Of a DNA stretch of 52,519 bases, positions 12,818 through 33,260 are shown one piece after another. The position numbers and the translations under genes were made by a program. The notes under the pieces were generated by a model, which was not told where the DNA came from, did no database searches, and saw nothing but the letters and a program-made list of their open reading frames with translations. Origin of the DNA: Actinomycetes bacterium. Its GTDB lineage: Bacteria; Actinomycetota; Actinomycetes; Jiangellales; Jiangellaceae. Each line of letters opens with the position of its first letter. Position 1 is the stretch's first letter. Where the stretch lies: contig JAJYTA010000010.1 in NCBI GenBank assembly GCA_021793295.1, forward strand, positions 1 to 52,519, in the 5' to 3' direction.

Positions 12818-14067
12818 TCACGACGGTGGAGAGCCTGCTGCGCGAGCAGGCGCCGCATGTTCTCGGTGCGCTCGTGCGCCGCTACGGGCACTTCGACCTC
12901 GCCGAGGACGCCGTCCAGGAGGCGTTGGTCGCCGCGTCCGTGCAATGGCCCGACGACGGCGTTCCAGCCAACCCCCGAGGTTGGCTCATCACCGTCGCCT
13001 CACGGCGACTGACCGACCAGCTGCGCAGCGAATCAGCACGGCGCCGGCGCGAAGAGGCGGCCTTCGCGCAAGAGCCCGCGACGCCCGGCGTGGCGGCACC
13101 GCCGGACGAGCATGCACCGGCTGCCGACGACACGCTCACGCTGCTGTTCTTGTGCTGCCACCCGGTGTTGTCGCCGACGTCCCAGATCGCGCTGACGTTA
13201 CGGGCCGTCGGCGGGCTGACCACGGCCGAGATCGCCCGCGCCTTCCTCGTCCCCGAACCGACGATGGCCCAGCGCATCAGCCGCGCGAAACAGCGCATCA
13301 AGAGCAGCGGCGCGCGGTTCGAGATGCCCTGCGCCCATGAACGCCACGAACGCGAAGCAGCCGTGCTGCACGTGCTCTATCTGATCTTCAACGAGGGCTA
13401 CACCGCGACCTCCGGCGAGCAGTTGCACCGCAACGAGCTGACCACGGAGGCGATCCGGCTCACCCGCGAAGTCCGCCGCCAACTGCCTGACGACGGCGAG
13501 GCCGCTGGATTGCTGGCGCTGATGTTGCTCACCGACGCCCGCCGCGCCGCACGCACCACCGCCGACGGCGCCTTGGTACCGCTGGCTGAGCAGGACCGTA
13601 GCCGGTGGAACCGCGCGTACATCGCCGAAGGCGTCGCCCTGGTCACCGAGGCACTGGGCACCCGCGCGGTCGGGCCGTACCAACTCCAAGCGGCCATCGC
13701 GGCGGTCCACGACGAAGCCGAACACGCCGACGACACCGACTGGCCGCAGATCCTCGCGCTGTACCAGCTGCTCGAGCGTCTCGCCCCCAACCCGATGGTC
13801 ACCCTCAACCACGCCGTCGCCGCCGCGATGGTTCACGGCCCCCACAACGGGCTCGCCATGCTCGCCGCCCTCGACGACGACACCCGCCTCGCCGAGCATC
13901 ATCGCCTCGACGCGGTACGCGGCCACCTGTGGGAGATGGCCGGTGACCTCGACGCCGCGAAATCGGCCTACCAGCGAGCGGCCCGCCGCACGACCAGCAT
14001 GCCCGAACGCGACTATCTCGAATCGCGGGCACGGCGCTTGAACCACGGGATCCAGCCGGATCCGTGA
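12814..14067 (+). CDS. ECF42-type RNA polymerase sigma factor
   Basis: The 417-residue protein has sigma region 2 (about 5-75, with GHFDLAEDAVQEALVAA) and region 4 (about 105-165, with LTTAEIARAFLVPEPTMAQR). A long C-terminal helical, TPR-like extension follows (about 170-417), containing RSRWNRAYIAEG and LYQLLERLAPNPMVTLNHAV. This layout, plus the coupled YCII gene, matches ECF group 42. In that group the C-terminal extension is thought to replace an anti-sigma factor. The GTG start is shared with the YCII stop. The regulon is not visible here. Confidence 0.88.
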   Translation: MITTVESLLREQAPHVLGALVRRYGHFDLAEDAVQEALVAASVQWPDDGVPANPRGWLITVASRRLTDQLRSESARRRREEAAFAQEPATPGVAAPPDEHAPAADDTLTLLFLCCHPVLSPTSQIALTLRAVGGLTTAEIARAFLVPEPTMAQRISRAKQRIKSSGARFEMPCAHERHEREAAVLHVLYLIFNEGYTATSGEQLHRNELTTEAIRLTREVRRQLPDDGEAAGLLALMLLTDARRAARTTADGALVPLAEQDRSRWNRAYIAEGVALVTEALGTRAVGPYQLQAAIAAVHDEAEHADDTDWPQILALYQLLERLAPNPMVTLNHAVAAAMVHGPHNGLAMLAALDDDTRLAEHHRLDAVRGHLWEMAGDLDAAKSAYQRAARRTTSMPERDYLESRARRLNHGIQPDP

Positions 14068-30226: not shown

Positions 30227-30253
30227 GGTGCCTCCGATTCGGTGCGAGTCATG

Positions 30254-30298
30254 TCAGTGCAGTCCGGTTCAGTGCAGTTCGGTTCAGTGCAATTCAGT
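30254..30298. repeat. Three 15-bp iterons between HIT and LCP genes
   Basis: TCAGTGCAGTCCGGT, TCAGTGCAGTTCGGT and TCAGTGCAATTCAGT follow head to tail at 30254, 30269 and 30284. They occupy the 148-bp divergent region between the HIT and LCP genes. They could be binding sites for a regulator or slippage products. The 15-bp step places successive copies on different DNA faces. Confidence 0.8.
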
Positions 30299-30360
30299 AC
30301 AGACAGTGCGGCGGCGGTGCCGATCATCCGGCCGGTCTCCTGCCCAGGATCTCAAGATCG

Positions 30361-30374: not shown

Positions 30375-31463
30375 ATGCGGAGAAGGAAAGACGACGCCGA
30401 GGACGAGGAGTCCGTCTACGCCGAGGCGATGCGCCAGTACGAGGAGTACGACGAGATCGTCCACCGGCGGCGTCGCAACCGGCGCATCTTCTTCGGTGTG
30501 TTGGCCGGACTCGTCACGCTCGTGTTGGTCGCCGGTGTCAGCGTGGCGTGGTTCGTCAACCGGGTCTCGTCGAACATCCCGCGAATCCCCGACGCCTTCG
30601 ACATCCCCGACGAACAGCGCCCGCCCGAGGCCGGCGGCGACGCCGTGACGTTCCTGCTCGGCGGCTTGGACAACGCCGACGGCCTGGACAGCGCGGAGGT
30701 GTTCCAGCCCGGCGCCGCACGCACGGACACGATCATGCTGGTGCACGTCCCGGACGGACGCGACCACGGCTATGTCGTGTCGATCCCGCGAGACACCTAC
30801 GTCGACATCCCCGACCACGGTGCGAACAAGATCAACGCCGCCTACTCGTTCGACGGGCCGGCACTGTTCGTCCGCACCGTCGAGCAGCTGATCGGCTTTC
30901 GCATCGATCACCTCGCGCTGATCGACTGGAGCGGGTTCGAGGAACTCACCGACGAGCTCGGTGGCGTCACTCTGACCTTCGACGAGCCCACCGTGCTCGC
31001 CGACGACACCACCCTGCCCGCGGGCGAGCACGTGCTGGACGGAGAGACCGCCTTGCAGTACGTCCGGGAGCGCAAGGGCCTGCCGGCCGGTGACTTCGAT
31101 CGGGTCAAGCGCCAGCAGAACTTCCTGCGCGCGCTGATGAACGAGCTGCTGTCGGCGGGCACTTTCACCAGCCCGAACACCATGAACGGCCTCGCAGACG
31201 CCATCGGTGAGACAGCGCGCGTCGACGAAGGTCTCGGCGCCTTCGACATGGTGCGTCTGGGCCTGTCCATGCGCGGGCTTCGCGCCGACGACATGACGTT
31301 CCTCACCGTGCCCACGGACGGAACCGGCGAGGCGGGCGGGCAGAGCATCGTCGTCTACGACGAGCAGCGCGCCGGTGAGCTGTGGGCGGCGCTTCAAGCC
31401 GACGACATGGATGCCTTCCTCACGGCCAACCCCGACCTCGTCACCGGCCACGACGTCAGCTGA
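30375..31463 (+). CDS. LytR-CpsA-Psr (LCP) family cell-wall glycopolymer ligase
   Basis: LCP enzymes attach polyprenyl-linked glycopolymers (for example arabinogalactan or teichoic acids) to peptidoglycan outside the membrane. This 362-residue protein has a basic, acidic-flanked cytoplasmic tail and one membrane span (about 39-60). The LCP domain follows, with ARTDTIMLVHV, VSIPRDTYVDIP, KINAAYSFDG and YVRERKGLPAGDFDRVKRQQ. The Arg and Asp residues that bind pyrophosphate are present. It lacks the LytR C-terminal extension. It is inserted with two further plus-strand genes between HIT and rsmE. Confidence 0.92.
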   Translation: MRRRKDDAEDEESVYAEAMRQYEEYDEIVHRRRRNRRIFFGVLAGLVTLVLVAGVSVAWFVNRVSSNIPRIPDAFDIPDEQRPPEAGGDAVTFLLGGLDNADGLDSAEVFQPGAARTDTIMLVHVPDGRDHGYVVSIPRDTYVDIPDHGANKINAAYSFDGPALFVRTVEQLIGFRIDHLALIDWSGFEELTDELGGVTLTFDEPTVLADDTTLPAGEHVLDGETALQYVRERKGLPAGDFDRVKRQQNFLRALMNELLSAGTFTSPNTMNGLADAIGETARVDEGLGAFDMVRLGLSMRGLRADDMTFLTVPTDGTGEAGGQSIVVYDEQRAGELWAALQADDMDAFLTANPDLVTGHDVS

Positions 31464-31642
31464 ACGCGGCGGTGCTCGCAGGCGGCGCGAAAGATCATTC
31501 GGGCATCGTACGGACGGCGCCACCCGCACCTGCACCGAGCTTGCGCCGTTTCACCGAATGGCCACCCCGACGCGAGGCCGATCACCTACGGTGGCCCGGC
31601 ACATGTAAACCAAACCGCACGGCACGGCGTCATCAGGGGTAT

Positions 31643-32155
31643 GTGGTGGAAGAGCAGATCGAATCCGCGGCAGACGCTGCGGTCACGGACCTCTACGCGG
31701 CCCACTACGTCCGACTCGTCCGGTTGGGCACTTTGCTCCAGGGCGATCATGCCGTTGCCGAAGAGGTCGTCCAAGACGCCTTCGTCGCCCTGCACCGGCG
31801 ATGGCGCTCGCTGCGCGACCCCGATCGCGCCGTGGCGTACCTGCGCACGTCCGTGGTGCACGGCTGCCGATCGGTGCAGCGGCGCCGCGGGGTCGCCGCG
31901 CGCCATCCCGAGAACCCACCGGACCATGCACCCAGCGCCGAGCACGAAGCGCTGCTCGATGCCGCCGGAGCCGCCGTGGTCGATGCGCTGCGCGAGTTGC
32001 CGCGGCGACAGCGCGAGGCCGTCGTGCTCCGCTACTACGGCGGCCTGGTCGAGGCGGAGATCGCCGAAGCCATGAAGATCAGCCGCGGCGCCGTCAAGAG
32101 CCACCTCTCGCGGGGCATGGCCGGGCTGCGTACCGCCATGGCCGCGTGGTCGTAA
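31643..32155 (+). CDS. ECF sigma factor (SigE-like)
   Basis: This 170-residue sigma-70 family protein has region 2, LYAAHYVRLVRLGTLLQGDH, EEVVQDAFVALHRRW and VAYLRTSVVHGCRSVQRRR. Region 4 is LRELPRRQREAVVLRYYGG with helix-turn-helix EAEIAEAMKISRGAVKSHLS. The start is one of two adjacent GTGs (31643 or 31646) behind AGGGG. It is followed after 10 bp by a membrane protein that may be its anti-sigma factor. A 179-bp gap after the LCP gene holds no other gene. Confidence 0.9.
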   Translation: MVEEQIESAADAAVTDLYAAHYVRLVRLGTLLQGDHAVAEEVVQDAFVALHRRWRSLRDPDRAVAYLRTSVVHGCRSVQRRRGVAARHPENPPDHAPSAEHEALLDAAGAAVVDALRELPRRQREAVVLRYYGGLVEAEIAEAMKISRGAVKSHLSRGMAGLRTAMAAWS

Positions 32156-32165
32156 GGGGTACATC

Positions 32166-33260
32166 ATGAACACGCCACATGAACCCGACGAATTCTCCCC
32201 CGAGGAACAGCGCCTGCGCGACGCCTTGCACCACGCCGCCGGCCAGGTGCACCCCGGCCCCGACGGGCTGGCGCAGATCCGGCGGCGCACCGCCGCGTCG
32301 ATCCCCTGGTGGCGTACGCCGGTGGCCGTCGGCTTGGCTGGTGCGACCGTCGTGGCAGCGGCGGTCATCGCCGGCGGCGTGGCGGTCCTCGGCGACGACG
32401 AGAGCCCCGTCGTGACGGCCGACTCGACGTCCACACCGCCGGAGTCCACCGACCCCATGCCCGCAGAGTCCGGCGCCGCCACGTCCGGGAACTCCCCGAC
32501 CCAGACCGAGGGTGAACCGACCGAGCAGGCAGATGTCCGGACCATCACCGTTCCGGTCTATTACGTCGTCGACACACCGGCCGGGCTCCGTTTGACGCGC
32601 GAGTTCCGCGAGGTCGAGTCCGCCGCGCCGGCGGTGACCACAGCAGTGGCCCAGCTCGGCGAACCACCGCTCGACCCGGACTACCGCACCCTGTGGCCGA
32701 GGGGACTCGACGTCGAGTCCACCCAGGTGGAAGACGACACGATCGACGTCGTGTTCGCCACGATGCCAGAGCTCGAAGCCGACTCCAGCGAGGCGGCACG
32801 GATGGCCGCGCAGCAACTCATCTACACCGCGACCGCCGCGGCAGCCATGCACGACGCCGGCTCCGCCACGACCGTGCAGGTGAGCGTGGACGGCGAGCCG
32901 GCGGCCTGGCCACAAGGCGGGCCGGATCTGGCCGATCCCGCCGGCCGCGCCGACCCCTTGGAGGTCCGCCAGCTCGTGCAGATCGACGAGCCGGGCCATG
33001 GCGCGACGGTGGCCAATCCGGTCGCGGTGCGCGGTTCCGGCGCCGCGTTCGAGGCGACGCTGCAGTGGGAGGTCCGCAGCGACGGCGACGTCGTCGACTC
33101 AGGCACCGTCACGGCCGAAGAGTGCTGCACCATGTCGCCGTTCGAGTTCGAGCTCGACCTCGAACCGGGGACCTATGAGGTCGTCGTCAGTGAGATCGAC
33201 GTCTCCGGCGGCGAGGGCCGCGCGCCGATGAGCGACACCAAGACCTTCACGGTGCAGTGA
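32166..33260 (+). CDS. Membrane protein with GerMN and Gmad2 domains, putative anti-sigma factor
   Basis: This 364-residue protein has three parts. A cytoplasmic N-terminus (1-50, FSPEEQRLRDALHHAAGQV then LAQIRRRTAAS) resembles tails found on products paired with ECF factors. One membrane span follows (about 53-76), then a Thr/Ser/Pro linker. The exported part has a GerMN-like domain (about 125-245, ITVPVYYVVDTPAGLRL) and a Gmad2 immunoglobulin-like domain (about 265-364, PVAVRGSGAAFEATLQWEV, FEFELDLEPGTYEVVV). No zinc anti-sigma HxxxCxxC motif is present. AAGGGG is six bases before the ATG. A sensor role is inferred from pairing. Confidence 0.8.
   Translation: MNTPHEPDEFSPEEQRLRDALHHAAGQVHPGPDGLAQIRRRTAASIPWWRTPVAVGLAGATVVAAAVIAGGVAVLGDDESPVVTADSTSTPPESTDPMPAESGAATSGNSPTQTEGEPTEQADVRTITVPVYYVVDTPAGLRLTREFREVESAAPAVTTAVAQLGEPPLDPDYRTLWPRGLDVESTQVEDDTIDVVFATMPELEADSSEAARMAAQQLIYTATAAAAMHDAGSATTVQVSVDGEPAAWPQGGPDLADPAGRADPLEVRQLVQIDEPGHGATVANPVAVRGSGAAFEATLQWEVRSDGDVVDSGTVTAEECCTMSPFEFELDLEPGTYEVVVSEIDVSGGEGRAPMSDTKTFTVQ

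Follow-up and report, generated by a model that had tools for sequence, protein, structure and literature searches.

The window, a stretch of 52,519 nucleotides from a Jiangellaceae genome whose nearest named relatives are Jiangella and Phytoactinopolyspora, encodes an ECF sigma factor followed by a membrane protein, with the gene for an LCP-family glycopolymer transferase upstream of both (Table 1). The sigma factor scores 152.7 bits against TIGR02983 (SigE-fam_strep; cut-off 141.55), which places it in the SigE family, and it contains sigma2 and sigma4 only, matched by Pfam Sigma70_r2 and r4_2. Identity to its orthologues is 50–83%. The stop codon of the sigma gene is separated from the ATG of the membrane partner by 10 bases, and in many other loci the two genes share an ATGA start/stop overlap. 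Before the start of the LCP gene, at 30250–30300, there is a short tandem array of GTTCAGTGCAGTTCGGTTCAGTGCA-type repeats.

Table 1 Features of the locus and of the prophage copy of the tail (positions in the window, except for the last row).
Feature	Position	Strand	Details
LCP-family glycopolymer transferase, upstream neighbour of sigma	30375..31463	+	PF03816/TIGR00350
ECF-type promoter of the operon	31605..31631	+	-35 GTAAACC (31605-31611), 16-base spacer, -10 CGTC (31628-31631)
SigE-family (TIGR02983) ECF sigma factor	31643..32155	+	GTG start at 31643, stop 32153-32155, 170 aa
Membrane partner of sigma (inner tail, one span, disordered linker, GerMN, Gmad2)	32166..33260	+	ATG start, 364 aa
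Cytoplasmic tail, proposed anti-sigma module	32166..32309	+	Residues 1-48; alignments A1 and A7, model
Single membrane span	32319..32381	+	~residues 52-72; hydropathy peak from residue 57; low-confidence model helix 52-69
Exported GerMN (Germane) domain	32556..32903	+	Residues 131-246; PF10646, 42.7 bits (cut-off 23)
Exported Gmad2 immunoglobulin-like domain	32976..33215	+	Residues 271-350; PF10648, 58.2 bits (cut-off 25.7)
Phage tail gene	L345:9058-9246; L346:3001-3189	+	62 codons; overlaps end of Erf-like gene

Architecture of the membrane partner

The layout described in the first-pass annotation, a sigma factor and then a protein with an inner tail, one span and exported GerMN and Gmad2 domains, proved accurate. 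The tail carries the motif L..AL..A..V.P..DGL..IR.R and is predicted to form two helices, at residues 12–26 (pLDDT ~93) and 34–44 (pLDDT 73–84). The same annotation rightly reported that a zinc anti-sigma motif is missing: the tail has neither a cysteine nor an HxxxCxxC (Hx3Cx2C) motif, and hence does not qualify as a zinc-binding anti-sigma (ZAS) domain, and a Pfam search of the partner matched no anti-sigma domain. The partner combines an inner N-terminal part with a membrane span, as expected of a membrane anti-sigma factor. The span is bordered by an arginine-rich sequence (IRRRT..WWR) on the inside and by acidic residues on the outside. The structural model has pLDDT >90 across the exported domains; its GerMN fold matches GerM of B. 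subtilis (6gzb, E 3.6e-6) and Gmad2 is modelled with confidence as a beta-rich fold. A profile search of the PDB with the partner returned weak matches only.

Joint occurrence of the tail and the sigma gene

Within the Jiangellaceae, the sigma gene lies directly upstream in every genome that has the GerMN-Gmad2 partner. We extended the comparison to 80 named loci from GTDB genomes in addition to the family's own loci. Tail and sigma gene were both present in 43 loci and both absent from 66, with a single exception (L030), where the contig breaks off at the tail and leaves the sigma side untestable. Some of these loci came from two collections, and removal of identical ectodomains left 33 tail-bearing versus 66 tail-less proteins. 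Most of the tail-less GerMN-Gmad2 proteins are lipoproteins or carry a signal of another kind, and no sigma gene adjoins them; in Arthrobacter and others, such a version occupies the same position between PhoH and RsmE, without the sigma gene. An ectodomain tree contained seven changes of state, at least three of which fell on branches with strong support; in all independent pairs, tail and sigma gene switched jointly. As there are only three such pairs, a sign test has no power, and the weight therefore rests on the counts and on synteny.

A tail-only profile (A7), which takes no account of the sigma factor, matched 50 of 118 genomes of the host's class and 108 when 394 were searched, nearly always once per genome. 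The sigma gene was immediately upstream on the same strand in 157 of the 159 tail loci retrieved, which represent 109 distinct pairs; the remaining two are L030 and a prophage copy described below. The pairing of sigma factor and partner is far beyond chance. Lack of conservation, which the first-pass annotation had named as grounds for dropping its idea, was thus not observed, and the pairing is kept across many families. In a quick tree, the sigma factors of tail-bearing loci fell on one side of a branch from 18 paralogues, a grouping that is tentative. Mean-field DCA of the 109 sigma-tail pairs, whose effective number is about 34, placed its top pairs at the alignment edges and was given no weight.

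The two genes could be neighbours merely because they sit in a conserved stretch of chromosome (PhoH-HIT-...-RsmE-DnaJ-HrcA), and this stretch is indeed conserved. However, the pair is intact at loci elsewhere in the genome (L208, L209, L213, L215 and L216), and inside the stretch the tail is gone whenever the sigma gene is gone. Because the pair holds elsewhere and tail-less lipoproteins in the same place lack the sigma gene, we rejected plain synteny as the cause, and regard it as barely credible.

Copies of actinobacterial type were also found in two records with unexpected titles, L049 (a Spirochaetaceae MAG) and L080 (Vibrio cholerae 35D), the latter grouping with Arthrobacter in the tree. 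Both are probably the result of contamination or misbinning.

The operon promoter and its candidate targets

The Jiangellaceae loci have an element in common upstream of the sigma gene, made up of GTAAACC (or a near match), a spacer of 16 bases and CGTC. Across all families, GTMAACS-N16-CGTC was present in 85 of the 109 distinct upstream regions (81 in the strict form) and missing as written in 24, while spacers of 12–15 and 17–20 bases gave no motif in these 109 regions. An earlier set had the motif in 31 of 44 regions, against 0.02 of 44 expected from shuffles. The form of this element is that of an ECF promoter and points to autoregulation. The strict form, GTAAACC-N16-CGTC, occurs once in the host genome, before the sigma operon, and the conserved regulon at that stringency is therefore the operon itself. 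The relaxed GTMAACS-N16-CGTC was considered as a genome-wide regulon and discarded, as its matches are dominated by GTCAAC and are mostly background.

Outside the paired loci, the motif precedes five tail-less GerMN-Gmad2 loci, one in Pedococcus (L060) and four in Propionibacteriaceae or related MAGs (L052, L055–L057). All three motif-bearing genomes that were tested encode the sigma factor elsewhere, its gene being preceded by the motif and directly followed by that of a GerMN-Gmad2 partner, with a weak tail match in two of these three operons. A close orthologue of the sigma factor was thus found in 3/3 genomes with the motif versus 0/7 tested genomes without it (Fisher p 0.008). Furthermore, GTAAACC-N16-CGTC occurs twice in perfect form in L050 (2889–2915 and 4018–4044), upstream of a secreted tail-less GerMN-Gmad2 gene and of the neighbouring sigma gene. 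The tail-less GerMN-Gmad2 protein is therefore a predicted target of this sigma factor in several lineages.

That the same promoter stands before tail-less paralogues is also consistent with GerMN-Gmad2 being mainly an effector in the envelope, with a structural or docking role, which in this lineage is also tethered to the sigma factor, so that its state of assembly, and not a ligand, would feed back on the sigma factor. The retention of tail-less versions in the absence of the sigma factor and the involvement of GerM, a GerMN protein, in SpoIIIA-SpoIIQ assembly (PMC6934232) point in the same direction, whereas tails without any GerMN in other families do not. We see this as a minority possibility; it is a sub-version of the sigma/anti-sigma reading favoured below and concerns the signal only.

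Exchange of the exported part and models for the pair

The same tail carries GerMN-Gmad2 in the form found in the Jiangellaceae, Gmad2 without GerMN in L206 and, with further sequence, in L210, an FG-GAP ectodomain in L208 and L215, and, in L207, a stretch that is rich in proline, serine and threonine and matches no family. In the FG-GAP group the pair lies outside the PhoH-RsmE neighbourhood and is still together. Since the ectodomains vary on a constant sigma factor and tail, these two belong together as a unit, and it is the ectodomain that can be exchanged; GerMN-Gmad2 is here, as judged from the sequences, one of several interchangeable heads.

These exchanges bear on the proposal, made in the first-pass annotation, of an envelope sensor in which binding of a wall ligand by GerMN-Gmad2 frees the sigma factor and the LCP ligase acts in the same response. 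Its core, a sigma factor paired with a membrane protein of anti-sigma type, stands; GerMN-Gmad2 does lie outside the membrane, is confidently folded, and adjoins an LCP gene here. As a general principle, however, ligand sensing through GerMN-Gmad2 is at odds with Gmad2 alone, FG-GAP, or disordered stretches with no recognisable ectodomain on the same tail and sigma factor, and with the persistence of tail-less GerMN-Gmad2 where no sigma factor is present. Nor is the position of the LCP gene conserved, as it adjoins the pair in 5 of the 17 tail-bearing named loci and is missing there in 12. A promoter shared by the operon and the LCP gene was likewise not borne out: GTAAACC-N16-CGTC was not found before the LCP gene, and within the window only the sigma gene has it. 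We consider the ligand-sensor proposal unlikely.

A prophage in one genome (with integrase, excisionase, Erf and HNH genes), of which there is a second record as a viral contig, has a gene for nothing but the tail; the product, of 62 aa, has no span, and no sigma gene lies next to this gene. The tail can therefore exist on its own. No related tails were found in annotated phage records. Our guess is that the phage protein may be a soluble anti-sigma factor acting on a host sigma factor. The membrane protein could instead be a positive partner which recruits or activates the sigma factor, since obligate pairing is compatible with both modes of action and sequence is blind to the difference between them. 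Nevertheless, the studied ECF-paired membrane proteins with an inner tail are mostly inhibitors (PMC7406223), and a soluble phage tail is most easily read as an inhibitor. We hold activation to be improbable; by analogy, the tail would very probably be an inhibitor of the sigma factor.

The explanation that we favour, with a probability of about 0.78, is an autoregulated pair in which an anti-sigma factor in the membrane controls an ECF sigma factor; tail and sigma factor are its fixed core, and exported parts can be exchanged. The sequences show that the two genes are paired, that tail and sigma gene are present or absent together, that the promoter is conserved and that ectodomains are swapped. 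From these we infer binding of the tail to the sigma factor, inhibition rather than activation, a signal and a release step. In unstimulated cells the sigma factor would be tethered to the membrane by the two-helix inner tail. It would be freed, probably via cleavage, when a signal from the envelope acts on the partner's outer part or alters the partner's stability. The free sigma factor would then use GTAAACC-N16-CGTC to transcribe the operon that encodes it and, where one exists, the gene of the tail-less secreted or anchored GerMN-Gmad2 paralogue. Against this explanation counts the regulon in the Jiangellaceae, which at the strict motif amounts to roughly the operon itself and is unusually narrow, as do the 24 of 109 loci in which the motif as written is missing.

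Among known systems, the class II anti-sigma factor CnrY binds sigma4 and sigma2 with two helices (PMC7406223). The pair described here resembles CnrH-CnrY in having a zinc-less, short, two-helix inner tail beside an ECF sigma factor, the tail helices here being predicted. The resemblance is one of layout and predicted form, not of demonstrated sequence relation, and a CnrY-like contact is a lead by analogy. To our knowledge, CnrY lacks large exported domains such as those of the partner. The class I anti-sigma domain (ASDI) consists of four helices (PMC7406223). ASDI proteins such as RseA, RskA, RsiW and ChrR share with the partner an inner N-terminal part and a gene placed after that of the sigma factor, and often a span and a variable exported domain. 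However, the tail, which has ~48 residues, lacks a zinc motif and is predicted to form two helices, does not fit the four-helix domain. With LpqB and GerM the partner shares a GerMN domain outside the membrane. LpqB is a lipoprotein that works with MtrAB, and we know of no pairing of either protein with a sigma factor via an inner tail.

It is conceivable, at somewhat less than even odds, that the tails make up an unnamed two-helix class of anti-sigma factors (108/394 genomes) with one orthologous SigE-family sigma factor, at least four heads and a phage-captured soluble controller of 62 aa. The layout was not described in the literature that we searched, outside of which lie the main ECF classification papers, and an earlier listing of the ECF group is possible. 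The work defines a testable pair of sigma/anti-sigma type, found in numerous genera of actinobacteria, whose promoter sequence can be used in reporter assays, and the natural ectodomain swaps separate the signal-receiving from the sigma-binding part. In addition, the poorly understood GerMN-Gmad2 proteins gain a regulatory context, and through the phage-borne copy of the tail a virus may be able to influence transcription in its host.

The host genome has more SigE-family sigma genes (L112, L114, L115 and L118), each followed by an overlapping partner gene whose product has a short N-terminal segment and other exported parts. These partners differ from the one described here in both tails and ectodomains, and possibly represent further pairs of a similar general kind. 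In the window itself, another ECF-type sigma match, a more distant one, is found at 12829–13305, with 38 bits to TIGR02983.
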